This document shows positions 25,472-45,116 of a DNA stretch of 64,000 bases, piece by piece; the stretch's first letter is position 1; every line of letters begins with the position of its first letter. A program made the translations under genes and the position numbers. The notes under the pieces were generated by a model, which was given only the letters and a program-made list of their open reading frames with translations, had not been told where the DNA came from and did no database searches. Source of the DNA: Vallitaleaceae bacterium (GTDB lineage: Bacteria > Bacillota > Clostridia > Lachnospirales > Vallitaleaceae). The stretch spans positions 1-64,000 of the forward strand of contig JANQFZ010000076.1 in the NCBI GenBank assembly GCA_028277605.1, read 5' to 3'.

Positions 25472-26428
25472 TTATTGTAATGGGTGATATCCTTGTAATG
25501 CAGCTTCTTTTTTAGATTGAAACACTTTTTCAACTACTGTATTGTTAGGCATTTTATCAGCTTCTACATAGTACTGGATGCCCTTTCCTGATGTATATCC
25601 AACATAGGTCTTACTTTTTAAAATAGATGCACCATTATAACAGAATAGATTTAAATATTGGTTGTTTGAAATGGGTTTTCCTTGAAATACAGCTATGATA
25701 CCTACATCTTGAATTGCATTATACCAGTCTGCTTTATCAATACGAGGTAACGTAAATTCATAAATTATCCCCAGATGGTGGCTAAAACGATTATGGTTAT
25801 TCACATGATAGCTCATACTCTCCTCAATCTGAGCTATCATACACTCTTTTTTCTCAATCATAAATTTAGAAGTATTTAGAAAAGGCGAAAGATGCCTTAA
25901 GTCCTTATAGTTTCCTTCATATTGCACTTTCTGATTTATATCATAAATTCTAACGGTATCATCTAATGTGAGGTTAATTATAGTACCATTATCGTCAACG
26001 ACTTGATAATAGCTTTTTGGGGAAAGCTGATGTTTTAGACAGGTATTATTATTATCATCCACATATTCTCTCATACTATATATATAATAACCGTCATAAT
26101 CTATAATAACCATGACTGGAATGTATGCTTTGACTCCTTCTTTCTCAGATTCTCCTATAGTTTTAAAGCTATAAAACAAGCTATTTAGAAAGGCTTGCAA
26201 ACCTTCTTCTGGCTTAATATTAATTGCTTTTAAATGAGCATATTCAAAAGAATGTGTATTAAAAATTTTTAGTGCTGTACAGCCATCCACTACAGCTGTT
26301 TTAATCATGTTTTCATAAAGGCATTGAATCTGCCTTGTTTTTAAATGAATATCTGATTGTACCTTATGAGTCATTAGGAAAGGAAGCATTGAAAATAAAA
26401 CCAATACACTATATTTAATGGTTCTCAT
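25472..26428 (-). CDS. Membrane-anchored pseudopilin-like protein, last gene of the Tad-like locus
   Basis: 318 residues with one N-terminal hydrophobic segment (about 6-20) followed by a long extracytoplasmic part. The C terminus (KGIQYYVEADKM, then VFQSKKEAALQGYHPLQ) resembles uncharacterised proteins of clostridial Flp-type loci. No catalytic motif seen. The frame is open 42 codons further upstream; the ATG at 26428 is preferred because GAGGAGGG precedes it and the hydrophobic segment follows directly. It overlaps the upstream gene by 14 bases, implying coupled expression. A role as minor pilin or tip protein is inference. Confidence 0.65.
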   Translation of the reverse strand: MRTIKYSVLVLFSMLPFLMTHKVQSDIHLKTRQIQCLYENMIKTAVVDGCTALKIFNTHSFEYAHLKAINIKPEEGLQAFLNSLFYSFKTIGESEKEGVKAYIPVMVIIDYDGYYIYSMREYVDDNNNTCLKHQLSPKSYYQVVDDNGTIINLTLDDTVRIYDINQKVQYEGNYKDLRHLSPFLNTSKFMIEKKECMIAQIEESMSYHVNNHNRFSHHLGIIYEFTLPRIDKADWYNAIQDVGIIAVFQGKPISNNQYLNLFCYNGASILKSKTYVGYTSGKGIQYYVEADKMPNNTVVEKVFQSKKEAALQGYHPLQ

Positions 26429-26936
26429 TTCGCACCATCCCTCCTCCTCGAACAAAAATTGTAGGATGTGTGGTTTGATTAACATATAAGTAATCTCTGA
26501 TAACTGCTGCTTTTGTTTTTCCTTGATTTTTAACCTCAATATAAACAAAATCACCTATATCCATAGAATAACTGCCCGAGCTGCTTAATACTTCTTCAAT
26601 ATTCTCTGTATAGGTGCCGTCATACACAATGGTATACTCCTCTAGGAATTGATGCGTTTTGTCATCATACACTGGTACATACTGCTTCTTATAATGTTCC
26701 AATTCAATCTGATATAGGTTGCCCGTTGCAGAGATTTTCTTTTTTAACTCATTGTACATGGTATCTGTCATATACCCTAAATCTCTAACAGAATCGATAA
26801 ATTTATGGGTTTCCGTATAAACCACGGAATAGGTTATATCATCTTGTCTTTCAAATGTATGCATAATAGGGATAACATAGAGTAAAATAACGACTAAAAG
26901 AATAGAGAAAATCTTCCAAATAGATTGATCCAACAT
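26415..26936 (-). CDS. Membrane-anchored pseudopilin-like protein
   Basis: 173 residues. One N-terminal hydrophobic helix (about 6-26) followed by a segment with FIDSVRDLGYMTDTMYNELKKKISATGNLYQIELEH, the layout of TadE-like or DUF4320-like minor pilins in clostridial loci; the rest is strand-rich. There is no prepilin peptidase motif (G-x4-E-Y/F). Gap of nine bases to the preceding gene, overlap with the following one. Function in the pilus-like machine is inferred from position. Confidence 0.65.
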   Translation of the reverse strand: MLDQSIWKIFSILLVVILLYVIPIMHTFERQDDITYSVVYTETHKFIDSVRDLGYMTDTMYNELKKKISATGNLYQIELEHYKKQYVPVYDDKTHQFLEEYTIVYDGTYTENIEEVLSSSGSYSMDIGDFVYIEVKNQGKTKAAVIRDYLYVNQTTHPTIFVRGGGMVRNENH

Positions 26937-26945
26937 CTATCTATA

Positions 26946-27344
26946 TTATTTTGGCAGATAGCGCATACCAATTAACTGACCATCAGTATTATATTGGCAG
27001 CTTACTATATAACAATCTTTAGGATGGATGAAGGATATATTTTCTTTTATTCTATCCTCACTCGTCATATGGTTGTTGTAAGTATACATTTGACCATCCA
27101 CCTCAATATTAACTTTATTCTCATCCCTATTCAATAGCTGTAAAATGACTTCTGAACCCAATATTTGATTCACTTGCACCCACTCACTTAATATAGTTAC
27201 ATTTTTTTGTTCACTCGTTCTGACTAAAGCAGTATTAAAATACCTTGTTAACTGATGCTGGTAACTAAAAAATAATGTAGCGGCACTTACTGAAATAAGC
27301 ATACCAACACCAATGTCTAAAAGTCTTTCCATGTGTTCGTACAT
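26946..27344 (-). CDS. Small pilin-like protein, paralogue of the 32014-32499 product
   Basis: 132 residues: an N-terminal hydrophobic helix (about 9-28) and a short globular domain. VNQILGSEVILQLLNRDENKVNIEVDG aligns by eye with VSGSDVVNAIKRYKSNSGELIICVDT of the pilin-like protein at 32014-32499 (shared V-x-G-S-D/E-V-V/I-x2-I/L followed by a strand), and both end soon after a final hydrophobic turn. AAGGAG precedes the ATG. No Flp prepilin motif. Confidence 0.65.
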   Translation of the reverse strand: MYEHMERLLDIGVGMLISVSAATLFFSYQHQLTRYFNTALVRTSEQKNVTILSEWVQVNQILGSEVILQLLNRDENKVNIEVDGQMYTYNNHMTSEDRIKENISFIHPKDCYIVSCQYNTDGQLIGMRYLPK

Positions 27345-27396: not shown

Positions 27397-30300
27397 TTAA
27401 CGACCTATCACATAATCTTCACTTGCCCTTTTATCTGTATAGTATAAGACAATGTCACCATAGGTCAGATGAAATCCATCCTGATTTATTTTAAAGCCTT
27501 CTCTTAACCATTGATTGGTATAAGAAGGATTGTTATAGGCTTGTACTGGGTTATTTAAGTCTGCATCTTGTATCCCTTCCAGTTTAAAGTTAACCATTAT
27601 ATACCCGTTATGTAGAAAGGGCGACTCATTGACATTGAGGTGTTTCATCGTTGTTAAATCAGTACCTTTAGGTACGGCTACTGTTGAGGATGGCAGATAG
27701 AACTCTCCATACCATTTTTGAACACTTTGAATCGCTTCTTCTTGTGTGATACTAGATGGTATATTAGCTGTGGAACCTATAAATGTTCTAACCGCTTCTG
27801 TTAGTAATACCCGACCGCCTTTTGCTATACTACGTTCCATACCGCTGAAGTACATCTGTTGATAGTCTTCTAAACTTTTATTTTCGTAGCTTCTATTTTG
27901 AGCATCTAATGCTTTTGCTGTATTCCATATTTCCTGCTTAGAAATATTTCTATAGGAATCATTGAGTATCATTGTTCTTGCTAGCTTATCGTACTGGCTG
28001 CCTATTTTTATCAGCTGACTACAGGATTCATAATATAGGTCAACCTCTTGGCGCTGTTTCCCAGTTAGAGACATATAGTAATACGTCGGAGTAATCAGTA
28101 TGCAGTCATATTTATCCATATAATCCCCATTGGTTATTAAATCAAAGCTTATTCTATAGCCTAGCTTTAATGCATAGCTCTCATACCCTTGGGTATCATT
28201 TTTATCTTCCATAATGGGTAAATGATACTGTCTTGTACTATCTATTTTTCCATTTCTATCCTTATCTCCTGAATAGAAGTACTTCCCTGTGTGTTCCGTA
28301 CTCTCTTCTTTTCTAAAAAATTTCTGCCAGTTCCAATCGGATATATCTGTTATTCTAAAGTCATATAATCTCCCTGTAACCTGTACGTCTATCTTTTCTA
28401 CCGCTTTATACTTATTAATGTCTAGATTGGCATGATACTCGTACTTTTGCTCATGCTCAGGTGTAAAGTTTAAAGGTATGGTTCTAAATAGAAGTGTATA
28501 AGTATCTTCTTTCACCCATGTTGGTATGTAGAAGATCATCTCGTCCAACCCGTCTGGAACGGTCATCCATGTATTCTTTTTCCCAAAAACACCTGTTCTG
28601 TCATGTCCTATATAGATGTCAAAAGGGAATTTAACTTGTCGTTTTTTGACATATGCCTCATAGTCTCTGAGTCCGTATCCTTTAATGCCTCTATGCTGCC
28701 CTTTTGTAGGATAATTAAGTATCATGGTATGACCTATTTGAAGTTGTATTGCATTTGTATTATGGTTAAGTGTCTGGGAATAATCCTGTTGATTTAAGAG
28801 TGTCGGTTTACAAATGACGGGTGTATGAATCGTGACTGGGTTAATACCTTTAATCGATTGTTGAATATTGGATTGAGCAGTATGGATACCTTTTATTAGC
28901 GAATAATGAATACTTCCTGTACTTGGAAGCTTATACTTATTAGGCTTGGTATGCTCTATAGGTATTTGTGCTGTATATAAGGTGTCATATGATAGTTCTG
29001 GTGGTTTTGGTAAAGCACTGGGGGCAGTTGTCCGAGTTGATACTAGTGAATCGTCTAGAATTATCGTATGATTAATGATACATTTATCATTTTTTACCTG
29101 TATTTCACTTATAGCTGCGTCAGCTTCATTCAACCAATTACTTGAAGGTATAGAAGGCTTACCCCTCTTACCACCGTTTAAGGTTGATGTTTTTAGAGTA
29201 ATCGTTCTATCATTTGGCTCAATCATGTGATCCGATGGCTTTGTGCTATGCCAAACATCTACCTCTGGTTGTGTGTAGTTCTTAGGTGCTAATACCATTT
29301 GATGGTTAGGTAAGGCTTCGTTTTGTATTACTGCTTTATCAAGACCAAAGATTTCTAACTGAGCTATCTCCCAATAAGCATACGTTCTAGGTATCGTATA
29401 AGTTTTCCTTATGGTTTTGGTATCCTTTTTATTCATCCATTTCTCTTCCCATTGACCTTCTTCGTTATAATCTCCTTTATCTTCTTTCCATTTAAGCTTG
29501 TACTTCTTACTAACGGTAACGGTGTAATATTTAGTCCCTGACTTTTGTACATAGGAAATGTTGGATAAGTATGATTTTGCATGAACTTGGATATAAACCT
29601 TTTCTCCAGTCGGTATCCCGTCTAAGGTATTAAATGCTTCATTTCCTCTTGGGTCAGCTTGGATAACGGCTGTTGCTTCGGCTGACATGTAACCGCTGGT
29701 TGACGAATTGGATTGGGAAATTTCGTCACTGGGCTTAAGATAAAAAGTATGCTCCTTTTCACGCGTTATTTTTTCGTGTTCCCCTGCGTGTATAATAAGT
29801 TTAAATTGAGTGGTTGGTTTCGTTGCTGTATAAGCTGCATGTTCGGTTGTGGCTATTGCTACATAACCTTGTCCTTCATCTGCAAACCATTCATAAGTAC
29901 AATGCTCTTCATCTATATGGTTGAGTTGGGATTTATTTTGAAGAGCTACAGCAACAGATGCATGTGGGGAAGCTGTAATAACTGGTTTATCATAATTATC
30001 TGTAACTTGATTACCTTGATGATAGATATCAAATTCTGCTACTGCATCTTGCTTAAGCTTCCTAGGAAGAATAATTGTAATATACCATTGCTCCATAATA
30101 CCATCACCATTACTATCCCAATCATGCCACATACGACCTACCCCATCACAAACAGTCGTTCGAGGCTGTAATACATGAACATAGGTATACCAGTTCTTAA
30201 CTTGTGTTTCATCAAATAGGTCTCCAAAACGGTCTTTTAAGGCTTGTCTGATGTAGGGTTCGTTTGATTCCTTGTAACTCCATTGATTAAATGTTCCTAA

Positions 30301-30672
30301 TTTATAGTTGGTAGGCATCTCTATCCACTTCCATTGATTAATAACAGTAGTTGCTGTATGATCATCAGGAAAATATTTATTAGGGATTTTATCATCATCT
30401 ATTGTATTGCCTATATATCTATGCTCATTTCTATTTGACTCATCTGAGAATTTTATATCACCTGAAACCTCTCCTTTAGCAAAAACACCATATTCAGTCC
30501 ATATATCATTTTTAAAATTAAAGAAAGAATAGTTATAGTAATTAAAGCCTAATTCATTATTTGCTTGGTCACAAGCCTGCTCTAATAAAACATACTCTTT
30601 ACCATAAGAATCTAAGCAATAATAATGCATACATAGCAAAATAAAGCTTATTATAATAATTTTAATCTTCAT
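27397..30672 (-). CDS. Large secreted surface protein with Ca-binding-like loops
   Basis: 1091 residues with a signal peptide (about 1-24). Early region YNYSFFNFKNDIWTEYG and FPDDHTATTVINQWKWIEMP recall clostridial proteins labelled DUF5704, a label I give with caution. Two EF-hand-like loops are visible: DWDSNGDGIMEQ (about 185) and GDKDRNGKIDS (about 800). The middle is Ig-like, strand-rich and Pro/Thr-rich; no wall-sorting motif is seen. It follows the SLH gene by 15 bases, so it may be a pilus-associated adhesin or be displayed through its neighbour. AAGGTGAG precedes the ATG. Confidence 0.7.
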   Translation of the reverse strand: MKIKIIIISFILLCMHYYCLDSYGKEYVLLEQACDQANNELGFNYYNYSFFNFKNDIWTEYGVFAKGEVSGDIKFSDESNRNEHRYIGNTIDDDKIPNKYFPDDHTATTVINQWKWIEMPTNYKLGTFNQWSYKESNEPYIRQALKDRFGDLFDETQVKNWYTYVHVLQPRTTVCDGVGRMWHDWDSNGDGIMEQWYITIILPRKLKQDAVAEFDIYHQGNQVTDNYDKPVITASPHASVAVALQNKSQLNHIDEEHCTYEWFADEGQGYVAIATTEHAAYTATKPTTQFKLIIHAGEHEKITREKEHTFYLKPSDEISQSNSSTSGYMSAEATAVIQADPRGNEAFNTLDGIPTGEKVYIQVHAKSYLSNISYVQKSGTKYYTVTVSKKYKLKWKEDKGDYNEEGQWEEKWMNKKDTKTIRKTYTIPRTYAYWEIAQLEIFGLDKAVIQNEALPNHQMVLAPKNYTQPEVDVWHSTKPSDHMIEPNDRTITLKTSTLNGGKRGKPSIPSSNWLNEADAAISEIQVKNDKCIINHTIILDDSLVSTRTTAPSALPKPPELSYDTLYTAQIPIEHTKPNKYKLPSTGSIHYSLIKGIHTAQSNIQQSIKGINPVTIHTPVICKPTLLNQQDYSQTLNHNTNAIQLQIGHTMILNYPTKGQHRGIKGYGLRDYEAYVKKRQVKFPFDIYIGHDRTGVFGKKNTWMTVPDGLDEMIFYIPTWVKEDTYTLLFRTIPLNFTPEHEQKYEYHANLDINKYKAVEKIDVQVTGRLYDFRITDISDWNWQKFFRKEESTEHTGKYFYSGDKDRNGKIDSTRQYHLPIMEDKNDTQGYESYALKLGYRISFDLITNGDYMDKYDCILITPTYYYMSLTGKQRQEVDLYYESCSQLIKIGSQYDKLARTMILNDSYRNISKQEIWNTAKALDAQNRSYENKSLEDYQQMYFSGMERSIAKGGRVLLTEAVRTFIGSTANIPSSITQEEAIQSVQKWYGEFYLPSSTVAVPKGTDLTTMKHLNVNESPFLHNGYIMVNFKLEGIQDADLNNPVQAYNNPSYTNQWLREGFKINQDGFHLTYGDIVLYYTDKRASEDYVIGR

Positions 30673-30687
30673 AGTATACTCACCTTA

Positions 30688-31698
30688 TTAATCTGATTTA
30701 TTTTTATACATTTCACTCCCATACCAAGAATTTATAGTTATAAAAGAACCTCTTTTTTTATTATTTTTGCCAGTTTGTTGATGCTCATAAATACATATTG
30801 AATCTCCTTCTATTAAATACCATTTTTCTTTTTGAGCTAGAATACTATAGAGTCCCTTTTTTTGTTTAATATATTCAATAACATCACAAATGTTTTGTTT
30901 AGAATATCTCTTTAATAATAAATCTTCAACATCTGATACTTGCAATTCTATAGGTTTAAAATAATCTATACAAATACTTAAGTCACAGTTATTAATCTTT
31001 TTAGTATCAACTATATCCAAATCACTATCAATCAACATTAAATCCTCTCTAAACGTCTCATCTACATTCAAAAATCGTTTTCTCTGATTTTTATCAATGA
31101 GTCTTCTTATTACGGCTGCGCCTTCTGCTCGTATCAAGCCGTTATTGGCTCTAAATGTACTATCTGGATAACCAGTAATGATACCTAGTCCATATATTTT
31201 GTAGACATCTTTTCTTAAGCTTTCAGGTATATCCAAGATATCTTCTAAGCATCTGCTGTAATTATTTAGATTCGCATAATGCTGCTCTCCCTCTATGACC
31301 CAAAGGGCTCTTTCAATGATGCGTGCCATTTCTCCTCTTGTGATGACTTTTGTATAACTGCTAAAATCCTCTTCTTTCACGTACCCCAATTCTTTTGCCT
31401 TCTGTATGTAAGATTCTGCCCAATTATCCCCCTGACTGATCGCTAAGTTGAAATGACTAGCGCGTATAACCATCGTAATGAACTCTTCTGCGGTTAACAA
31501 GAGATCGGGTCTAAAGGTTCCATCTGGATACCCATCAATAATTTGACGGCTATCAGCACTCAAAACATTGACATCTTCCATGAACCAGTCCTTTTCCTTG
31601 ACATCAGAGAACCTATTTCCAATTGCATAAGTATCACTAAGTTTTAAAAAAGATCCTATAAGAAATAGTACACCTATTAAAACAACTTGTTTTTTCAT
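30688..31698 (-). CDS. S-layer-homology (SLH) domain protein
   Basis: About 336 residues. Signal peptide (about 1-25), then SLH modules: FSDVKEKDWFMEDVNVLS with IIDGYPDGTFRPDLLLTAEEFITMVIRA, a second with WAESYIQKAKELGYV and ITRGEMARIIERAL, and a third with YGLGIITGYPDSTFRANNGLIRAEGAAVIRRLI. SLH modules bind pyruvylated secondary wall polymer, so the protein should be held at the cell wall. The last 110 residues are unrecognised. The frame is open to 31743; the ATG at 31698 directly precedes the signal peptide and has AAAGGAT upstream. Confidence 0.88.
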   Translation of the reverse strand: MKKQVVLIGVLFLIGSFLKLSDTYAIGNRFSDVKEKDWFMEDVNVLSADSRQIIDGYPDGTFRPDLLLTAEEFITMVIRASHFNLAISQGDNWAESYIQKAKELGYVKEEDFSSYTKVITRGEMARIIERALWVIEGEQHYANLNNYSRCLEDILDIPESLRKDVYKIYGLGIITGYPDSTFRANNGLIRAEGAAVIRRLIDKNQRKRFLNVDETFREDLMLIDSDLDIVDTKKINNCDLSICIDYFKPIELQVSDVEDLLLKRYSKQNICDVIEYIKQKKGLYSILAQKEKWYLIEGDSICIYEHQQTGKNNKKRGSFITINSWYGSEMYKNKSD

Positions 31699-31795
31699 TG
31701 AGCCCATCCTTTCTATTTGACTGTCTACTATATATTTATCCATTCTGTACTTAAAACTCGTTATTCTATTGATATTATTGTCTTAGAAGGGACAC

Positions 31796-32013: not shown

Positions 32014-32499
32014 TTACTGCTGAATAAAGGTCATCCCTCTAACGACCTCATTATCATCGTAAATAAGCTCGGAATAGAATTTGCCACTCTTATTAATATA
32101 TAAATTATCTGTTTTATCTTCTGATTTAGCTATATCATTATCAATAACCGCTTTAGTCTTAGTATTTAAAGTACCACTTAATGATGTGCCTGTCACAGAA
32201 CCACCACTGATGTATTGATAGGTAGCGGCTAGCTTGGTATCCACACAGATGATTAATTCACCACTATTACTTTTATATCTTTTGATAGCATTGACAACAT
32301 CGCTTCCCGAAACCGTTGTGTTATCAAAAGGTGAATACTCAGCCTCACTTAATGTCACACTGACATCCGTTAACTGCTTGCCTGCTTCATTAGCTAATCC
32401 CTTGCCTTGATTTAAGAGAAATAAACCGATACTAACCACGGTTATAAAAAAAAGTATCCCCACACCTAACCACAAGGCTTTTTGAATATTTTGATCCAT
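32014..32499 (-). CDS. Putative major pilin-like subunit of the Tad-like machine
   Basis: About 161 residues: a short charged start, one hydrophobic helix (about 8-28) and a small domain with VTLSEAEYSPFDNTTVSGSDVVNAIKRY, a Gly/Ser/Thr-rich middle and a C-terminal KFYSELIYDDNEVVRGMTFIQQ. Similar proteins lie beside TadA/B/C genes in other Clostridia. It lacks the Flp leader motif G-x4-E-Y, so standard prepilin processing is not expected. Position straight after TadB/C and before a possible terminator suggests the main filament subunit; that is inference. AAGGAG seven bases before the ATG sets the start; the frame is open to 32544. Confidence 0.68.
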   Translation of the reverse strand: MDQNIQKALWLGVGILFFITVVSIGLFLLNQGKGLANEAGKQLTDVSVTLSEAEYSPFDNTTVSGSDVVNAIKRYKSNSGELIICVDTKLAATYQYISGGSVTGTSLSGTLNTKTKAVIDNDIAKSEDKTDNLYINKSGKFYSELIYDDNEVVRGMTFIQQ

Positions 32500-32603
32500 A
32501 ATATCGCTCCTTATCTCGTGTACATTTATATTGACCCTCATCATTTTGCTCTATAAATTCAAATTAATGACACTTTAACATTATATGTTAGTATTCCTAC
32601 TCC

Positions 32604-34643
32604 CTATGATAATGATAGCTTTGAAAAATAGGTATTCATTTCATTAATACTGGTTATCAGCATTGGAAGCATTAAGTATACAAGCAAAAGTGCATATATA
32701 GGCAGAAAGCCAAAAGCTCTTCCAAGTCCTGTTTTCTTTTGGATAATTCTATTGTTGGTTTCTTTTCTCTGTTCCTGATAATAGTTTTTTTCACTTTCCA
32801 ATTCATCAAAGGCTTGCACTAAAGACAAGTCATTAGCTGCCATTTGAAGCTGCTCAATTATCTTTTGAAATCCCTTAAAAGAAACCACGTGTTTCAACTC
32901 TTCTAATGCTTCATCCATACCATAGGCTAGTGAATTGACACAGTTTTGAATCGGTTCTCGAAAGGTGAAGGAAAACCGTTCCATCCATTCTAAAAGCTCT
33001 TCAACTGAAATCCTCTGGTGATGCATCAGCATTAGAATGATGGCTTGAAAATGAGAAACTTCATCCTCCATATCCATCTTTCTTACCTCTTTTTGAAAGT
33101 GGATTGATAAAAAAGGCACTTGATAACCCACTATAAATACAATAAGACATAACAAAATTTCCCACCATCTAATATACTGATGATTCAGCTTTGAAAGTTT
33201 TTCTAAAATTCTATCCACACTAGCATCTGATAGATGATGTCTTCCCTCATGTGTCCTCATGTACTTTTGGAGTGCTATTAAGTCCGTGGCTCTTCCAACT
33301 TCTTTTATAATCTGCCTATCCTGCCTCGTTATGGCTTCAGCCTTTTCTGCTTCTTGACGAGATAGTTGACCTCCTAAAAAGCCATCAGGCATAGTGGGAC
33401 TAAATAAAACGTGATGGACAGCCATTCTATGCATCATTACTACGATGATAAAGGCTATGATAAAGCTAAATAATCCAAAAAGTAATCGGCGTGTATAAAA
33501 AACTTCTATTTTAAGCCTAGAGAAAGTCTTATTGAGCTTACTTTGAAACTTGGCTCTATCACTACATTTTCTTGGTAATAGAGGATCAATTATAAAATAA
33601 AACCGTTTATAAATTTTCTCTGAAATAGACTTTTTGTTAATGAGATACAGTGTTCTATCATCAAACTGCTGAATTTTTCTTATGGCAAAATAACAAACCC
33701 ATATAATCCCAAACATAGCTACTTCTAGCACAAATCCATAACTACTGTCATAAAAGGAACCTAATGGTAAGAAGTTCTTACCTGCCCAGCTCTTTATAGG
33801 GTTCATAAAAAACAGAGGAAGCAACACAATAATATTTAAACTTTTCAAAGCATAATTAAGTCTGTCTCTTTTAAAGACCTCTATTCTGAGAGCACTTGAT
33901 AAATCATTTAAATTTTTCATAAATACTGACACTCCATTGACATACGTATCGCCATATTCTAATGTCATGTAAGCTAATCCAGCAAGCATCTTGAGATACT
34001 TATTCGGTGCTGTATCGTAGTACTTTAAGATTTCTTTCTCAGCATCCTTTGCCGTCAGGGCATCATAGATTTTTTGACCTTGTATACCTATTTCATATTG
34101 GTCTTCTACCATTTGAGAAGCCTCATATAAAGCTTCATCAACCATCTTAGTTTCATAGTATTTATGTCTAACGGTATTATTAAAATGTATCTGCTGGTTT
34201 AATAACTTGTTTCTTATTCTCACCACAAAATAATCTATAATCGTTTCACCCAAAAACCATAGGGCTACGATAAAAATGACAATACTATAAAGCTGATTAG
34301 TCATAGCAATAAATAAAATAACGAGCAAACTTAAGACTATAAGTATTCTTAAATAAAGCTGTACAGCCTTTTTGCGTATAGCTGCCTCTCCATAGTTATG
34401 AAGCATTTCTAACCTTGAACGAATGTCATAAATATAGCGCTTAGTAATCCATGATCTGGATAGTACTCTATAGAGCTTTTGATAAATAATTTCTTGTTTT
34501 GAACGTGTTTGATCCTTAGTTTTTATAGCTTTAAAGCCTAACTTCTGACGCTTTTTAAGCATCATCATCAGCAACAAGAGAAATATCATGACTAGAATGG
34601 ATCCCGCCATAATTCCTATTAAAATTAATTGCCTATTATTCAC
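32604..34643 (-). CDS. Fused TadB-TadC-like inner membrane platform protein
   Basis: About 679 residues, twice the usual length, with two T2SSF-like halves. Each half has a cytoplasmic helical domain followed by hydrophobic segments: first half helices about 150-270, membrane about 100-140, 275-295 and 320-345; second half membrane about 390-410, 495-515 and 650-670, with the helical domain about 530-640 (EELLEWMERFSFTFREPIQN, LSLVQAFDELESEK). TadB and TadC, normally separate, form the platform on which the ATPase works. Start: GTG at 34643 nine bases after GGAG; a TTG at 34658 would overlap the ATPase gene. Confidence 0.75.
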   Translation of the reverse strand: MNNRQLILIGIMAGSILVMIFLLLLMMMLKKRQKLGFKAIKTKDQTRSKQEIIYQKLYRVLSRSWITKRYIYDIRSRLEMLHNYGEAAIRKKAVQLYLRILIVLSLLVILFIAMTNQLYSIVIFIVALWFLGETIIDYFVVRIRNKLLNQQIHFNNTVRHKYYETKMVDEALYEASQMVEDQYEIGIQGQKIYDALTAKDAEKEILKYYDTAPNKYLKMLAGLAYMTLEYGDTYVNGVSVFMKNLNDLSSALRIEVFKRDRLNYALKSLNIIVLLPLFFMNPIKSWAGKNFLPLGSFYDSSYGFVLEVAMFGIIWVCYFAIRKIQQFDDRTLYLINKKSISEKIYKRFYFIIDPLLPRKCSDRAKFQSKLNKTFSRLKIEVFYTRRLLFGLFSFIIAFIIVVMMHRMAVHHVLFSPTMPDGFLGGQLSRQEAEKAEAITRQDRQIIKEVGRATDLIALQKYMRTHEGRHHLSDASVDRILEKLSKLNHQYIRWWEILLCLIVFIVGYQVPFLSIHFQKEVRKMDMEDEVSHFQAIILMLMHHQRISVEELLEWMERFSFTFREPIQNCVNSLAYGMDEALEELKHVVSFKGFQKIIEQLQMAANDLSLVQAFDELESEKNYYQEQRKETNNRIIQKKTGLGRAFGFLPIYALLLVYLMLPMLITSINEMNTYFSKLSLS

Positions 34644-34648
34644 AAACC

Positions 34649-36502
34649 TCAACTCCAATATGTATCTATAAACGATTGAAAACTCTTTTTATCTTCCTCT
34701 GTCATATGCGCGTTCATCTGTGACATATTATGGTGGGATATTTTATGCTTAGCAACATATTGACCATTAACATACTCAAGTATATTATTGGCTACATACT
34801 GCTTACGATCAGTTCTTCTTCTATAATATTCAGTCGTTGTGTCCATAAAAAGGGCTTGTTTTTCATCTTTATCATGGGCTTCCTTATAGGTATTGGGATA
34901 TTCCATATCTTGATTCAGTGCAATTATTTCTGTGATTCTTTCTATATATCTTTTACCTGAATAATCTCTTGTTAAGTGAATATCAAAATTAAGAACTTGA
35001 ACCACCTGTTGTTCAGCAACCTTTTCATTATTAAAGACCTCACACTTTAAAAGAGAATTTCTTAAGGATAAGACTAAATCATGAACCGTTTTTGCATGGT
35101 GGGTAAAAACGGTGAATAAGCTCGCAACCTGAGCCATTTGTATCATCCAGGCAGCTACAGGATCTGTTGCCACCTCTCCTAAGATATTCACTGATCCATC
35201 CGTTTTTTTCTGTATATCCAGCCCCTGCTGACCTGAGATAGTGTCCGTTTCCTTAAAGGTGAGTATATTTCTCATAGGATAAACCTTTCTAAGATGCAGT
35301 TCGAAAGCCATTTCTTGCACCCTTAATGTCAAGGTGGCATAAATATGCCTTACAAATGCCATTAATAAGGTTGTCTTTCCAGAGCCTTGTGCTCCTGTAA
35401 CAGCAGTAACTCTACATCCTTTTGCTAAATAGGTAATCAGCTTTATGGGAAGCTCACTATTCTTATCTTTAATCAGTTGGTTCAATGTAACATGTTTGAT
35501 ATGAAACTTTCTAACAAAAAATGCCCAGCTTTCTGAGAAATTAGGTCTCACAACAACAACCCTGGAGCCATCCTTCATTTCATTCACTTTATATCCAACA
35601 TTTTCAGATAATTGCCCTGCTTTATTATAGCGATAGATATTTTGGCATATTCTTCTAAGCTCTTGAACTGAATCAAAGCTTAGGAAAGACAGATGTATGG
35701 ATTTACCCTTATAAAAAATCCAAACACTGTTATAACCACTAATTGTCTGTTGCCCCTCCCCTATACGTATTAAGTTTTTTGCATCTAAATCTCCAGAAAC
35801 GCCTCCAGAGACACCATCAATGTTCATGTCTCTTATCTCATCAATAACACCATACCCCTTATAGATTTGGTAAACCCTTTGAACAATAACATTAAGTTTA
35901 TCCTCATAGGATAATAAAAGACGTTCCTTTTTAAAAATGGTTTCTATTTCTTCTTCTGATATGATATAGGAAACCGTATGACCATCTTCTATCATGCACT
36001 TAAGCTGATCTAAATGATATACTTCTATGAGTTTTGTTAAACCATCATATCCATGGCGCTTTTTAAAGGTATATAGGAGAATATCAAATTTATCTCTTAC
36101 AGTTAATCGATTGTATTCATCAAATGGTATAACCTTATCAACACAACTGGCATTTAGGTAAGTGTCCTTTAGTAAATCTAAAATAAAATCTTTTACATAG
36201 GCTTTATCCTCAACGGAACCATAAAGGCAGTTTTTTAAGGCTTTTTTTAACTCACTTCTTTTATTTATTCTTCTTTGAAAGGTTTCACTATCAAGTCCAA
36301 GCTCATAAAGATTGGTTCTTGTCATTTCATTAATATAATCTCTAACATAGTTTACCAGTGAGTTAATTGTGAATTTTTCACTTGCAATAGTTTTTTTAAC
36401 CTTTCGTTCATTATGTCTGCCTCTTCTCATGTAATGAATAAGAAAGGCTAAACATAGGAGGATAATAGTTAAAATTAAAGCAGTGTTAAGCCAGTCTTTC
36501 AT
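34649..36502 (-). CDS. TadA/CpaF-type secretion ATPase with N-terminal membrane anchor
   Basis: 617 residues. The C-terminal half is a CpaF/VirB11-type ATPase: Walker A GAQGSGKTTLL (Lys about 376), an Asp/Glu-rich region RNILTFKETD, a Walker B-like NILGEVATDPVAAWM and THHAKTVHDLV in place of the usual THAN box. This is the only intact P-loop in the locus. Unusually a hydrophobic helix (about 6-26) and a basic stretch precede the cytosolic part. It powers filament assembly or secretion. The ATG at 36502 has AGGTGG five bases upstream; overlap with the preceding gene is 17 bases. Confidence 0.88.
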   Translation of the reverse strand: MKDWLNTALILTIILLCLAFLIHYMRRGRHNERKVKKTIASEKFTINSLVNYVRDYINEMTRTNLYELGLDSETFQRRINKRSELKKALKNCLYGSVEDKAYVKDFILDLLKDTYLNASCVDKVIPFDEYNRLTVRDKFDILLYTFKKRHGYDGLTKLIEVYHLDQLKCMIEDGHTVSYIISEEEIETIFKKERLLLSYEDKLNVIVQRVYQIYKGYGVIDEIRDMNIDGVSGGVSGDLDAKNLIRIGEGQQTISGYNSVWIFYKGKSIHLSFLSFDSVQELRRICQNIYRYNKAGQLSENVGYKVNEMKDGSRVVVVRPNFSESWAFFVRKFHIKHVTLNQLIKDKNSELPIKLITYLAKGCRVTAVTGAQGSGKTTLLMAFVRHIYATLTLRVQEMAFELHLRKVYPMRNILTFKETDTISGQQGLDIQKKTDGSVNILGEVATDPVAAWMIQMAQVASLFTVFTHHAKTVHDLVLSLRNSLLKCEVFNNEKVAEQQVVQVLNFDIHLTRDYSGKRYIERITEIIALNQDMEYPNTYKEAHDKDEKQALFMDTTTEYYRRRTDRKQYVANNILEYVNGQYVAKHKISHHNMSQMNAHMTEEDKKSFQSFIDTYWS

Positions 36503-37322
36503 AAGCACCACCTACTTTATTCAGCTGTTCCAACTCTTTTAGTAAAACTCTGGATGCCTCTCTTAAAGGATGAAAGAATGCATAATTAGGATCCGTTTTC
36601 CTTACATACATATTTCTTATAAAATAATCCACCACATTGCAATTGTTACAGCTGTTTTGAAACCCTATGTGATATGGTACAGTAATAACAGGATTAAATC
36701 GGTATTGCTTGATGGTATTTTTAATGCTCTGCTTAGACAGCTTGTTAAACATACCTAAACATACGACATGCTTTTTATCTTTAAAGAAGTCTTTGTATTC
36801 CTGTACTTCTAGGAAGTCATTGAGCACTGCCTTGTTTTGATTGAGACAGATAACTATCAGCTGTGAATGCTCTAGTAGTGTACGAGTCAACTGATGACTT
36901 AATCCACTGTGAACATCAATAGCTACCAGATCATAATATTGATTAGCATAATTAAAAATCTGCTGTAAAAGCTGGTGTTGTTCTTGCAGCTCACCTATAT
37001 TTTTCTGTGTTGTACCCATCATCATATCAAGTCTGCTCTTGCTTAATATAGGTGTTGTATAGTTGTGAATCATATCTGATGATAATCGACCATTTTTAGC
37101 TAAGCGTGTCAAGGCATCCATACCATGATCACTAAAGGTCAGCATGTTTTGCTGTTCATACTGTGCACCTGTAAGACTTCTTTCTAAGGTGCTTCTTGAA
37201 GCATGACTATGCCCAATTAAAATCTTATAGTCATGATGAAGGGCTATGGATAAGGTTAAGGCAATGGCATTGGATGTCGTTGCTGTTTGTCCATGAACGG
37301 TCGACCAAAAAGCAATCTGCAT
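36486..37322 (-). CDS. TadZ/CpaE-like protein with degenerate P-loop
   Basis: 278 residues, ParA/MinD-like in layout: IAFWSTVHGQTATTSNAIALTLSIAL at the position of the P-loop (no Lys), YDLVAIDVHSGLSHQ at the position of Walker B/switch II, and LIVICLNQNKAVLNDF. TadZ/CpaE proteins place the Tad machine in the cell. It overlaps the upstream gene by one base and tadA by 17. The C-terminal CNNCNVVDYFIRN contains a C-x2-C pair of unknown meaning. Confidence 0.72.
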   Translation of the reverse strand: MQIAFWSTVHGQTATTSNAIALTLSIALHHDYKILIGHSHASRSTLERSLTGAQYEQQNMLTFSDHGMDALTRLAKNGRLSSDMIHNYTTPILSKSRLDMMMGTTQKNIGELQEQHQLLQQIFNYANQYYDLVAIDVHSGLSHQLTRTLLEHSQLIVICLNQNKAVLNDFLEVQEYKDFFKDKKHVVCLGMFNKLSKQSIKNTIKQYRFNPVITVPYHIGFQNSCNNCNVVDYFIRNMYVRKTDPNYAFFHPLREASRVLLKELEQLNKVGGAYERLA

Positions 37323-37966
37323 TATACCCTACTCCTCTCTGCCTGCTTCATAACTTTTCTTATGGCTTTACTATCCATTAATGTAATATCGGTTAACAGA
37401 TGGTTTAAAATTTTTTTGTATCCTTTGGACAAATGCTTAATAGCTAAAGCGTTATCATATTCATTTTCCAAATGAACCACCTGATCATATTCTGTAAAAT
37501 ATAGGGTATATTTGAATTTGCTAACCGTCTCTAGCACTTGTTCAAAGTAAATATTAAGTACTTTTTCATTAATCTTGGAATCCGTATGTACATTTTGATA
37601 GAGTAATATCGTTTTTGTAGCTTTGGTCAGCTCAATTTGCTGAAACAGTTTTTGATTATCTATCATACGACTTTTATGGCTGTCCGTGATCAAGCAGACC
37701 CAATCACCATCATTGATTCTCAGTTCCTCTTGTTCACAATCCAATAGAACATAATCATAAGCATCTAACTCTAAACCCTGTGACTCTTTACTAGTATTAT
37801 ACAGGTCTAAGTTATGGCATAACTCATACGGATTGATAGATTCCTGCTGAACCTCATTACAGGTGATGAGTATGGTTTTTCCAATAAAACTAAGGCATTT
37901 ACCAACATATAGGATTAAAAAGCCTTTATCTCTATATTTCTTGCCAACAAACAAACATCGTTTCAT
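37322..37966 (-). CDS. Degenerate CpaE/MinD-like protein without P-loop
   Basis: About 214 residues. The order of strands and helices (GFLILYVGKCLSFIGKTILITCNEV, then LDAYDYVLLDCEQEELRINDGDWVCLITDS) follows the MinD/CpaE fold, but the P-loop is absent, replaced by KKYRDKGF. It probably binds no nucleotide or binds it differently. Start chosen at the ATG with GAGGGG six bases upstream (37966); the open frame extends to 38017 into the CpaB gene. The assignment to this superfamily is from overall pattern only. Confidence 0.6.
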   Translation of the reverse strand: MKRCLFVGKKYRDKGFLILYVGKCLSFIGKTILITCNEVQQESINPYELCHNLDLYNTSKESQGLELDAYDYVLLDCEQEELRINDGDWVCLITDSHKSRMIDNQKLFQQIELTKATKTILLYQNVHTDSKINEKVLNIYFEQVLETVSKFKYTLYFTEYDQVVHLENEYDNALAIKHLSKGYKKILNHLLTDITLMDSKAIRKVMKQAERSRV

Positions 37967-37976
37967 GAACATCCCC

Positions 37977-38906
37977 TCAAAATTCGAAAGCATCCTGCTC
38001 CTTTTTATTTTCTTCAATTAAACCGTTTTCTTGATTGACTCTTAGGCTAGATGCTTTTTTTTCTGGTGTTTCTTCATCGTGAAAGGCATATAAATGGTCT
38101 TCGAGTTCCTCTCTTTTTCTCAATTCCAAAGCTTCCTTAGATTGAAAAACAAGATTTGGATCCGCTAACATAAGTTCTAAAACCGCTTGGTTCACAGGAT
38201 AAGTCACTTGGGCTGCTGATTGTACTACTGCATCCACATACTGCAAGGCATACAGCTTCGTTCCCTCGTGTAAATAGGCATCTACACAGGCACTAGCTAT
38301 TCTTAAAATCTCTTCTTCGTTCAGCATCATCCAAAGTGTTTCTTTTATACTTCCATTGTCACTCTGCAAGCGTTCTATGGCTTCCACTCTTTTTTTGGTT
38401 AAAACAATATAGTCTTGACCGGTTGGAAACTTAATTCTTACATCAATAGCATCATTTTTTTCTAATAGAGAAGGCAGGAATAACAAACTCATCTCATAGC
38501 GTCTCAAATCATCACTAATAGACTCAAAATCGTGCAATATATCCTCCGTCACGGGTGTATTCGCCGCTAGATGGATTTTTAATGTTTTTCCTACTATATC
38601 CTCTAAAGCTTCAATGGTATTATTAGGCTTGATATCTTCGTTTAACCCCACTAATATGACATCTTCTTGTTTAAGCTGCTCTCCAGCTTTTATGTCTCTA
38701 CTTAATAAATAGACACTTTTTTCATTTTTATTGGCAGATTCAACTAAGGCATGAGAAGCATTTTCCAATTCGGCTACCTCTTGCTCTAGTTCTCGAATCT
38801 GATTGTGATCCAAGATAAAAATAATAACGGTTACAACTGACATTAACAAGGCACCTATTAAGCCAGAAGCTATTAGATTTTTTGTTCTCTGTCGGATAAT
38901 TGACAA
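37977..38906 (-). CDS. CpaB/RcpC-like SAF-domain pilus assembly protein
   Basis: 309 residues: membrane helix (about 12-31), a coiled coil (about 35-58, HNQIRELEQEVAELENASH), then a SAF domain (VYLLSRDIKAGEQLKQEDVILVGLNEDI through NTPVTEDIL, about 64-125), the mark of CpaB/RcpC proteins that sit at the outer side of the membrane in Tad systems. The C-terminal 150 residues are charged and helical. It lies between two CpaE-like genes, 11 bases from each. Confidence 0.82.
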   Translation of the reverse strand: MSIIRQRTKNLIASGLIGALLMSVVTVIIFILDHNQIRELEQEVAELENASHALVESANKNEKSVYLLSRDIKAGEQLKQEDVILVGLNEDIKPNNTIEALEDIVGKTLKIHLAANTPVTEDILHDFESISDDLRRYEMSLLFLPSLLEKNDAIDVRIKFPTGQDYIVLTKKRVEAIERLQSDNGSIKETLWMMLNEEEILRIASACVDAYLHEGTKLYALQYVDAVVQSAAQVTYPVNQAVLELMLADPNLVFQSKEALELRKREELEDHLYAFHDEETPEKKASSLRVNQENGLIEENKKEQDAFEF

Positions 38907-38917
38907 TACTCTCTCCC

Positions 38918-39550
38918 CTAACTATTTAATATGGTTGACAACTGTAGTGACGTATCTGGGTGTAAGATAAAAGGATCGGGGTGAAAGGGTATCAGATATA
39001 CTTTTTTGTTAAGATGTTTATTCAATTCCTTTACCTCCTGCTTGTTTGAAAAAAGAATACAAAACATCCATTTTGAAGCATTTGATTCGTTTTTGTGATG
39101 GTTCCAAAAATCAATTAGTTCCTCTCTTTTCCATTCAATAGCATGCCCGATGACTATTGATCTATCCGAACGTAAAAATTCATCAAAATATGGAGACTCA
39201 CAACTACCAATATCCATAATGACGTAATCATAGGACTTGGATAGAATGTTTAACAAATGGATAGACTCATGATGCTTATAATAATGAACCCCCTTCATAT
39301 GGAAATCACGATCCTCTAATGTCAGATGACTCCCTTCATAAGCCCTTTGTATCGATTGAAAAGCACCTGTAGAATTCAGCTCTACCAAAGCAGTTTTTTG
39401 TTTGAGCTGGTTTAGATACTGAGCAAATAGAAGACTTGTATGGGTCACTCCAATCCCGCTGTTGACACCAATAATACCAATAGTTATCGTTTTATGAATG
39501 GTATGGATGGTTTTTCTTTTACCTAGTAACATGGGTTTTCTTTTCATCAC
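38918..39550 (-). CDS. CpaE-like protein with altered Walker A (GxxxGxGVTHT)
   Basis: 210 residues. TIGIIGVNSGIGVTHTSLLFAQYL occupies the P-loop position but the deviant Walker A lysine (GGxGKT) is replaced by Val-Thr-His; SYDYVIMDIGSCESPYFDEF is the Walker B/switch region and SIVIGHAIEWKREEL follows. Soluble. It overlaps the kinase-fusion gene by 33 bases, which implies coupling, and resembles that protein's C-terminal domain (both have G-x-T-H-T), so the two may be paralogues that pair. Confidence 0.75.
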   Translation of the reverse strand: MMKRKPMLLGKRKTIHTIHKTITIGIIGVNSGIGVTHTSLLFAQYLNQLKQKTALVELNSTGAFQSIQRAYEGSHLTLEDRDFHMKGVHYYKHHESIHLLNILSKSYDYVIMDIGSCESPYFDEFLRSDRSIVIGHAIEWKREELIDFWNHHKNESNASKWMFCILFSNKQEVKELNKHLNKKVYLIPFHPDPFILHPDTSLQLSTILNS

Positions 39551-40961
39551 TTCTTCTCCTAAACCATCTTTTCTTCTTTTGCTGCTTTTTTGGCAGATAG
39601 GACTTAATTAACTCATTAAATTTAACATTCGCTGCTTTGCTGGGTTGATAAGGATTAGGGGAATAAGGTAATACGAAACAGTTGAATCCTTTCATATTTT
39701 TTCTAATGTGCTTTATGTTCTCTTCATCCATGAATGAAAAACAGTATTTAAAAGACTTTGCACTTCTACAGCTCAATAGAAAATTATCTAACATCGGTAT
39801 TTCCCAATCCTTGCCACCACATACCACTAACTTTACATGACATTTCGCTATTAAGTCTTCGGTCGTCTCTACATTAAACCCTCCTAAATCCAATATAACA
39901 TAATCCAAGTGTCCAGTTAAAAGCTCTGTTAGATCCCGATTTTCTTGGTACAGATAGAAGGCTATATTTCTTAAAATAAACTGTTCACCTAAATCGTTAC
40001 TATCGTAATACATATTTTTGATGTGCGTAAAATCATTAGAGTTAGTAAAATCAACGATTGCTGCCTTATACCCTTTATCTGTTAATAGGCTCCCTAGCGT
40101 CAACACGGTATGGGTTGTTCCAATACGAGGCATTAATCCCATAACCCCTATTAAAACAGTTCCAATTATTTCGGATTTATGAGTGTTTGGTTGATGTATC
40201 ATACCTAACTGCTTTTTGAAAGCTAATGCTTCTTGAAATCTATCTGCTGGAAGTAAACTGGTAGCTGTCATGAGGCACTCATTCAGTTGATTAGAATAAG
40301 ATTTGATTTCATTGTTAATGGGCAGTATTTTATATGGGGGATCCGATAAGGTTTTCCCAGTTGCCAAGTAGTAAAGCGTCAGACCTACACCATAGATATC
40401 TGAGCGTTCATCACTCTGGGCTCCACCATACTGTTCAGGTGCCGCAAACCCCCTTGACCCAATCTGCATGGTATCGGAGTGTGCTTGATACTTATACTCC
40501 CTAGATATGCCAAAATCAATAAGTTTAATGCATCCATTCTCCATTAGAATAATATTATCCGGCTTCATATCTCGATAAATGATAGGATAGGGCTTTCTGG
40601 TATGTAGGTAATGCAATATCTCACACAGTTCTCCGCCCCACTGAACAATGTCTGTCTCATTCACATGGATATGCTTTTCTTTATACTCCCTTAGATTTAT
40701 GCCTTCAACATATTCCTCAATGATATAAATGTTATCTGCATCTTCTTCTATATCAATAATTTTAGGTATGGCTGGATGATTCAGCTCTTTTAAAATCTTT
40801 GGTTCAGCTAAAAAATTTAGCTCACTTTGACTCTTATGGATAACCTTAATCGCCCATTTTGATCTAAGTTTAATATTCTCTGCTAAATAAACAACACTCG
40901 TTCCTCCTCTTCCAATGGGCTTGAGAATTCTATACTTACCAAATAGTATTGTCCCTAGCAT
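39519..40961 (-). CDS. Ser/Thr protein kinase fused to a CpaE-like domain
   Basis: 480 residues, first gene of the Tad-like operon. Residues 1-262 are a complete Hanks-type kinase: GRGGTSVVY glycine loop, Lys39, Glu53, YRDMKPDN catalytic loop (Asp131, Asn136), DFG at 149-151, APEQY at 174. Residues about 266-440 are CpaE/MinD-like: GLMPRIGTTHTVLTLG in place of a P-loop, LDYVILDLGGFNVETTE and VVCGGKDWEI. A very basic tail (KKQQKKKRWFRRR) ends it. No PASTA, FHA or membrane segment. Phosphorylation control of machine assembly or placement is the obvious inference. GGAGGGG precedes the ATG. Confidence 0.85.
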   Translation of the reverse strand: MLGTILFGKYRILKPIGRGGTSVVYLAENIKLRSKWAIKVIHKSQSELNFLAEPKILKELNHPAIPKIIDIEEDADNIYIIEEYVEGINLREYKEKHIHVNETDIVQWGGELCEILHYLHTRKPYPIIYRDMKPDNIILMENGCIKLIDFGISREYKYQAHSDTMQIGSRGFAAPEQYGGAQSDERSDIYGVGLTLYYLATGKTLSDPPYKILPINNEIKSYSNQLNECLMTATSLLPADRFQEALAFKKQLGMIHQPNTHKSEIIGTVLIGVMGLMPRIGTTHTVLTLGSLLTDKGYKAAIVDFTNSNDFTHIKNMYYDSNDLGEQFILRNIAFYLYQENRDLTELLTGHLDYVILDLGGFNVETTEDLIAKCHVKLVVCGGKDWEIPMLDNFLLSCRSAKSFKYCFSFMDEENIKHIRKNMKGFNCFVLPYSPNPYQPSKAANVKFNELIKSYLPKKQQKKKRWFRRRSDEKKTHVTR

Positions 40962-41303
40962 AACCCCTCCTTATGCAAGTTGTTTTTTTGCAGTATTAAC
41001 GTGTTGGTGTATAGATGTGTCGTTGTCTGTACATTTAAATTCTATGATTAATGTCTATTGATGAGATTTTTTTGATGATTAGGTAATATCACAGATGTCA
41101 ATACATTAGAAATGTTATCAGCTTTGATTTTGAATTCTTATAGGAAGATAGAATGGTCCCATAAGAAAATAAACCACCCAAAAAGGGTGGATTAATGCCC
41201 CTTTTTCTTATTAATATAATCCCTTTCACCCTCATTTACCAAAATACAATACTATTATACATAATTAATCAAATAGTTGCAATAATTTTTTTTATAAAAT
41301 TAT
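40962..41303. other. Leader region of the Tad-like operon and tail of purA
   Basis: 342 gene-free bases. A TTGACA on the minus strand near 41100 has no matching -10 box, so the operon's promoter is not identified and may need another sigma factor. The terminator of purA lies at 41174-41190. Confidence 0.45.
41174..41190 (-). terminator. Terminator of the purA operon
   Basis: On the minus strand CCACCC-TTTTT-GGGTGG, a 6-bp GC-rich stem, is followed by TTTATTTTC. It lies 114 bases after the purA stop codon. Confidence 0.65.
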
Positions 41304-44105: not shown

Positions 44106-44456
44106 CAGGTTGTTATGAAAGATAATTAAGTTGTCTTATTTATCCTCTTTACATTTGACCCGCTTTTCTATTATACTATACTTAGAAGTAAAACTATCTA
44201 AAGCTTTGCATAATACAACTTGTTTGCATGACTAAGACATATATTGACCAAAGCAAGCATAAAATCAAAGCAAGAGAGTCATTTGACCTTATCCGTTAGT
44301 AATTAAGATTAAACACTATGGTTTTCTTCATAACATCAGTGATACTTTGATCGTGCATTAAGACTATGTTATGGAACATGATGTGTAAGAGATTGGACTA
44401 TTACCTCATACGTATGGTAACCTTAGAGATCTCTCATGTGTAAAGGATGTGATGCT

Positions 44457-45116
44457 ATGAAAATAGAAAAAGTGAATAGTAACCAAATAAGGTGTACTTT
44501 AAGTAAAGTAGATTTGGTCAATAGAGAAATTAAAATTAGCGAACTTGCTTATGGAACTGATAAAGCTCAAGAGTTGTTTAAGGATATGATGGAGCAAGCT
44601 TCTAATGAGTTTGGCTTTGAGGCTGAGAATGTTCCCCTAATGATAGAGGCAGTACCCCTATCCACCGATAGTATTATGCTGATTATTACCAAAGTGGATA
44701 AACCCGAGGAATTTGAAGATAAATTTTCTGCTTTGGCATCCAGTAATGTTAGGAAATTTAAAAAGCATGAACAAAAAGAGAAAAAAGATAGCAAGCCCTC
44801 TCAAAAAAGCTTTAATATAAAAAGTAAAGTTGCTGTTTTCTCCTTTCAATCACTGGATGACGTTACTAGCTCAGCAACTCAGGTTAAGACCTTATTTAAT
44901 GGGTATAATACCCTTTATAAAGATGAAAAAAATAAGAAATACTATTTAGTTCTGCATAATACGCTTGAAAATGATACGCCTTTTGTAAGTATTATCAATG
45001 TTTTATCTGAATATGGAGATCGAGTACATTCCTCTGATCTTGTAGAAAGCTTTTATCAAGAACACTACGAAACTATCGTAAGAGATAAGGCACTTCAAGT
45101 ATTGGGGCATTTATAG
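44457..45116 (+). CDS. mecA: MecA-family adaptor protein
   Basis: 219 residues. The N-terminal domain MKIEKVNSNQIRCTLSKVDLVNREIKISELAYGTDKAQELFKDMM and the QASNEFGFEAENVPLMIEAVPLSTDSIMLIITKV strand pattern are typical of MecA, an adaptor that presents proteins to ClpC. A charged linker (about 85-115) leads to the C-terminal MecA domain (about 120-219), which in Bacillus binds ClpC. AAAGGA precedes the ATG at 44457. Single-gene unit ending in a strong terminator. Confidence 0.88.
   Translation: MKIEKVNSNQIRCTLSKVDLVNREIKISELAYGTDKAQELFKDMMEQASNEFGFEAENVPLMIEAVPLSTDSIMLIITKVDKPEEFEDKFSALASSNVRKFKKHEQKEKKDSKPSQKSFNIKSKVAVFSFQSLDDVTSSATQVKTLFNGYNTLYKDEKNKKYYLVLHNTLENDTPFVSIINVLSEYGDRVHSSDLVESFYQEHYETIVRDKALQVLGHL

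Follow-up and report, generated by a model that had tools for sequence, protein, structure and literature searches.

Little is understood of how Tad pili get their place and are activated; TadZ/CpaE proteins are thought to place them. A reading frame from a Vallitaleaceae bacterium may give this problem a new side, for it joins a Ser/Thr kinase to a domain resembling CpaE. We ask here what kind of protein this fusion is, how widely it occurs, and what a kinase might do in such a place. The window analysed is the whole stretch of 64,000 nucleotides that carries the gene (contig JANQFZ010000076.1, positions 1 to 64,000, forward strand).

Domain architecture of the fusion

The reading frame occupies exactly the interval given in Table 1, with an ATG start, no internal stop and a ribosome-binding site (aaGGAGGggtt) close upstream. 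Pkinase (PF00069) matches residues 10-207 with 152.5 bits, well above the cut-off of 31.7 (E=1.8e-44). The Lys, Glu, Asp, Asn and DFG that define a full Hanks-type Ser/Thr kinase domain are all there (K39, E53, D131, N136, D149-F150-G151), as the first-pass annotation of this DNA had read them, and so are P175/E176, D188 and R241. The full-length model has a mean pLDDT of 85.8. The nearest solved kinase domains belong to PASTA kinases of the PrkC/StkP/PknB type, namely StkP (9ruj, E=2.7e-32) and S. aureus PknB (4eqm). In contrast to these, the fusion has no PASTA match in Pfam and no evident membrane anchor, the sequence and the folded model having been inspected for a membrane segment; both absences had been claimed before. 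An assignment to the PrkC/StkP kinases themselves was rejected on a NF033483 score of 169 (cut-off 450) and on the lack of PASTA repeats among the Pfam matches. A defence-system reading was likewise set aside, as the PADLOC matches (mad6, PD-T4-6) span mainly just the kinase domain. The single other PF00069 match in the genome is a 638-aa frame adjoining a PP2C gene. The kinase coding sequence contains a 17-nt tandem repeat of 2.5 copies (40205-40248).

Since a fold search with the full-length protein gave kinases only, the C-terminal domain was modelled alone (pLDDT 92.9). Its top structural matches are ParF, FleN, the TadZ of E. rectale (3FKQ; Z 16.4, 182 residues, 12% identity), FlhG and MinD. 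Only about 1 Z unit separates these matches, too little for the fold by itself to single out TadZ; the operon does so. A profile of the C-terminal domain of 96 relatives matches ParA/MinD proteins across the P-loop. The first-pass annotation had staked its reading on this half not turning out to be an unrelated fold, and a MinD/TadZ fold is what prediction and profile return. Across the 96 relatives, the Gly preceding the Walker-A lysine position and a Walker-B-like Asp are invariant, while the lysine of GK(T/S) itself is almost always replaced by T, V or A and present in 0 of 96. Judged by its sequence, the domain is thus not a canonical MinD ATPase. The fusion shares with the TadZ/CpaE proteins of Tad pili the MinD/ParA-type fold and a position at or near the start of a Tad operon, but differs from them in lacking the Walker-A lysine and in its N-terminus, where a Hanks kinase occupies the place of the receiver-like domain (PF21194); the canonical TadZ of the same genome does match PF21194. 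The tail is as basic as first described (12 K/R and 2 D/E among the last 27 residues). The contact with membrane or DNA proposed for it is not supported as a general role: the tail is shorter in several Paenibacillus and missing in other relatives, and a conserved anchor is ruled out by this lack of conservation.

Genomic context

The fusion is followed by E2, a CpaB-like protein, E3, E4, a TadA-type ATPase, a 684-aa membrane protein and a pilin-like protein, in frames that overlap or almost touch (Table 1); E2 overlaps the fusion by 32 nt. That three more CpaE-like proteins stand in this operon and resemble the C-terminal half of the fusion had been proposed beforehand and was confirmed by comparison, clearly for E2 (E=3.9e-16) and E4, more weakly for E3. 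E2 is found in Lachnospirales and is absent from the Paenibacillus and Thermoclostridium loci. The operon TadA stays below the curated Pfam and TIGR cut-offs and is recognized by hhalign against the canonical TadA of the genome (98.3%, 28% identity over 269 columns). The fusion is thus encoded together with TadA and CpaB, as is expected of a TadZ/CpaE protein. For the 684-aa membrane protein no family match lies above cut-off, and for the pilin-like protein Pfam gives none; their names are inferred.

Table 1. Features of the kinase-TadZ-like locus, in window coordinates.
Feature	Position	Strand	Basis
Kinase-TadZ-like fusion, 480 aa	39519..40961	(-)	ORF, Pfam, full-length and domain models
Layout of the fusion: Hanks kinase ~1-257; linker ~258-266; MinD/TadZ-fold domain ~267-455; basic tail ~456-480 (residues)			
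E2, stand-alone CpaE/TadZ-like domain, 210 aa	38918..39550	(-)	homology to fusion C-terminal half
CpaB-like protein (SAF domain)	37977..38906	(-)	PF08666 E=1e-7; TIGR03177 E=6.4e-7, under curated cut-off
E3, divergent CpaE-like protein	37322..38017	(-)	hhalign to fusion C-terminal domain 90.8%, E=1.2e-6; no Pfam match
E4, CpaE-like protein	36486..37322	(-)	hhalign to fusion C-terminal domain 97.2%, E=3.6e-11; weak AAA_31
TadA/CpaF-type ATPase, divergent, 620 aa	34649..36511	(-)	TIGR03819 E=1.8e-7, under cut-off
Membrane protein, 684 aa, presumed fused TadB/TadC platform	32604..34658	(-)	position and conservation
Pilin-like protein	32014..32544	(-)	conserved position
Terminator-like hairpin between purA and fusion	41174..41190	(-)	consensus scan only

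The hairpin between purA and the fusion, together with the good ribosome-binding site, is consistent with a predicted separate transcript of which the fusion is the first gene; Rfam gives no RNA family upstream of the fusion. The same intergenic region holds a promoter-like site (10 of 12), which the terminator-like hairpin follows about 65 nt on (41174-41282, minus strand). A divergent MecA gene lies 3.5 kb upstream of the fusion (44436-45116, plus strand). After the pilin-like gene come an SLH-domain protein and a 1091-aa DUF5704/Athe_2463-domain protein (27397-31743, minus strand), perhaps surface partners of the pilus, and three neighbouring proteins with N-terminal hydrophobic segments (25472-27344, minus strand), by position possibly minor pilins (TadE/F-like). 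Elsewhere in the genome (G000:C15, L033) a second divergent Tad operon has an FtsK/SpoIIIE ATPase of 1522 aa and a protein of 82 aa as neighbours; it resembles the T7SSi reported for Vallitalea, and the N-terminus of its 456-aa TadZ-like protein is not a kinase.

Inside the fusion operon no FHA or PP2C gene was found, and the operon TadA has no FHA match in Pfam. Both families occur outside the operon: of the 35 fusion genomes, 27 have FHA and all have PP2C_2. The only fusion beside a PP2C gene is an atypical, related copy (G014), which also has a frame of 1569 aa with FHA nearby, in the manner of type VII loci.

Distribution and descent

Homologous fusions were recovered 98 times, from Lachnospirales, other Clostridia and Paenibacillus, which excludes an assembly error or single-strain artefact, the other outcome on which the first-pass annotation would have fallen. 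When the order was searched with the C-terminal domain, 55 of 392 genomes matched, many of the matches being kinase fusions, in most cases with E2 next to them downstream. In a scan of named genomes anchored on TadA, with Thermoclostridium caenicola among its matches, the fusion stands in the same slot at 22 of 80 loci. Among Paenibacillus, the slot is filled by the fusion in antarcticus, glacialis, macquariensis, lutrae, chitinolyticus and sediminis. In a phylum-wide sample, the matches listed cover the fusion model over almost its full length in 11 of 398 genomes, the source genome of the window counted. The order of the operon, and with it the linkage to TadA that had been marked for checking, is kept across Lachnospirales, Thermoclostridium and Paenibacillus. 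In other Paenibacillus and Cohnella loci the same slot holds a TadZ of classical layout, receiver-like plus AAA_31 with KGGVGKT; the kinase thus stands where a receiver domain would. All fusions examined outside Lachnospirales lie in Tad operons, these loci having been found through TadA. A single origin of the fusion was rejected on the TadA tree, on which well-supported branches force at least 6 changes, so that repeated loss, replacement or transfer is the likely course of its predicted history.

Conservation of catalytic residues

We compared the 98 fusions in three groups: 36 that share their stretch with TadA, 26 that are unlinked but whose genome has a cognate TadA, and 36 whose genome has none. 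The 62 fusions unlinked to TadA are mostly Lachnospiraceae-like, and a few of the 26 are contig breaks. The catalytic residues K, E, D, K, N, D and E are kept in 36 of 36 TadA-linked fusions, loci that are partly ascertained by TadA itself; the full set is found in 16/26 unlinked fusions with a cognate TadA and in 4/36 without. For a Thr in the activation loop (mostly DT), ahead of the GT/GS of the P+1 loop, the corresponding counts are 33/36, 1/26 and 2/36. The D-K-N of the catalytic loop is intact in 52/62 fusions from genomes with a cognate TadA versus 5/36 from those without, where one fusion classed as TadA-negative (L064) is the second fusion in a genome with a cognate TadA. The raw association between TadA and the catalytic motif is strong (Fisher p 9e-12), kinship being ignored in this value. 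Phylogenetically independent pairs give no signal; on the tree TadA changes 8 times and the motif 5 times. We have therefore dropped the strong claim that loss of Tad entails loss of catalysis; given the few independent changes, what can be said is that residue conservation is consistent with a kinase whose predicted activity serves the Tad machine.

The unlinked and Tad-less fusions belong mainly to one Lachnospiraceae-like family, whose variants exchange K133 for Q or N136 for H and often DFG for DFD. Many of the Q variants carry K or R two residues later, as in tyrosine kinases, and for this reason we do not call the Q/H variants dead. The pair of fusion and E2 is kept without cognate Tad genes at L080, L082-L087, L091 and L186-L212, many of which have LDLQPKN and DFD instead of HRDLKxxN and DFG. 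The LDLQPKN/DFD group is possibly a clade of pseudokinases or of kinases with altered chemistry. In several Lachnospiraceae-like genomes, reading of the loci places the Tad-less pair between divergent mecA and GH18/cwlD-like genes. This pair, which the first-pass annotation did not foresee, is either a candidate for a role outside this pilus or its remnant.

Discussion

We propose that the fusion serves a divergent Tad-like pilus machine as its positioning factor of the TadZ/CpaE type, and that an active Ser/Thr kinase has taken the place of the receiver-like domain and gates assembly or positioning; we give this reading a probability of about 0.55. As to catalytic activity, docking, localization, substrates and gating, we infer the following course. 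The C-terminal MinD-fold domain, probably with E2, E3 and E4, would dock on the complex of TadA and platform or on the membrane build site and so keep the kinase where the machine is built. Phosphorylation of the activation loop would turn the kinase on, which could then phosphorylate itself and/or neighbouring proteins of the machine, perhaps E2, E3 and E4 as the first-pass annotation suggested, and this phosphorylation would gate pilus assembly or positioning.

Parts of this arrangement are familiar from other systems. The threonine phosphorylation pathway of type VI secretion consists of a membrane-bound kinase, a phosphatase and Fha. There, as for the fusion, the kinase is encoded within the machine's own cluster and possibly gates assembly, but the fusion operon contains neither phosphatase nor FHA partner. 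The type VI pathway is also taken up in PMC11217815. FHA domains in class III CpaF (PMC12019362) and in the Kil system of Myxococcus (PMC8460266) hint that Tad-like machines are controlled through phosphothreonine; these systems carry the reader, whereas the fusion operon carries the putative writer. Type VII loci of the same phylum encode TscD/TsdD/TseD kinases or the TadZ-like TsfV, some of them beside Tad genes. These kinases are membrane-bound, TsfV has a receiver domain, and kinase and TadZ-like protein are separate, while in our case they are fused; the passages drawn on describe no kinase-TadZ fusion (PMC11217815). The kinase-TadZ architecture is undescribed in the literature searched, with subscription papers mostly outside that search.

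Other readings of the kinase have to be weighed against this proposal. Its domain might serve mainly as a binding or nucleotide-sensing module, with catalysis of minor importance, much as the EssB pseudokinase domain does in type VII secretion. The T7SS ATPase has FHA domains to which EssB-type pseudokinases bind (PMC11217815), and the Lachnospiraceae-like genomes retain the domain despite their exchanges at K133, N136 and DFG. We consider this reading rather unlikely, as TadA-linked loci, that of the window included, never vary the catalytic residues and rarely the activation-loop Thr, and some of the Q variants with K/R two residues on may not be dead after all. The Tad-less pairs next to mecA, and the related fusion of G014 near PP2C and FHA, would also suit a general kinase of envelope or cell-cycle signalling that is placed by its MinD-like domain, meets the Tad operon as one setting among several and has its main targets elsewhere. 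Such a kinase is improbable in our view: it is precisely next to TadA that the canonical residues of catalysis and activation loop are best preserved, and outside Lachnospirales the fusions all lie in Tad operons, though found through TadA.

The kinase could finally write for the other, canonical Tad system of the genome, whose operon lies on another contig (G000:C79; L213:5495-11782) and comprises TadZ with its PF21194 receiver, TadA and further genes. A DUF6382-FHA protein encoded 4 kb downstream of this TadA would then read its phosphothreonines. FHA is found downstream of canonical TadA, on the same strand and within about 12 kb, in 17 of the 25 cases listed, and genomes without the cognate Tad often retain the canonical one. 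However, a direct link between the two loci on their different contigs is absent, and the PASTA-type kinase of the genome could equally serve the FHA protein, so that we regard this as very improbable.

We therefore keep to the positioning factor with a built-in kinase. An architecture of this kind points to phosphorylation having a part in controlling where or when the pilus forms. More tentatively, a MinD/ParA-superfamily positioning protein with its own Ser/Thr kinase may represent a stable and widespread self-placing kinase, for which the parallel CpaE-like subunits would form the platform and whose phosphorylation would be confined to the pilus assembly site. If our reading is true, a kinase-dead point mutant would offer a direct handle in culturable hosts such as Paenibacillus, and Tad-like systems would possess a dedicated writer beside the FHA readers noted in others of their kind. 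A TadZ with a built-in kinase would then unite placement and control of the pilus in one protein.
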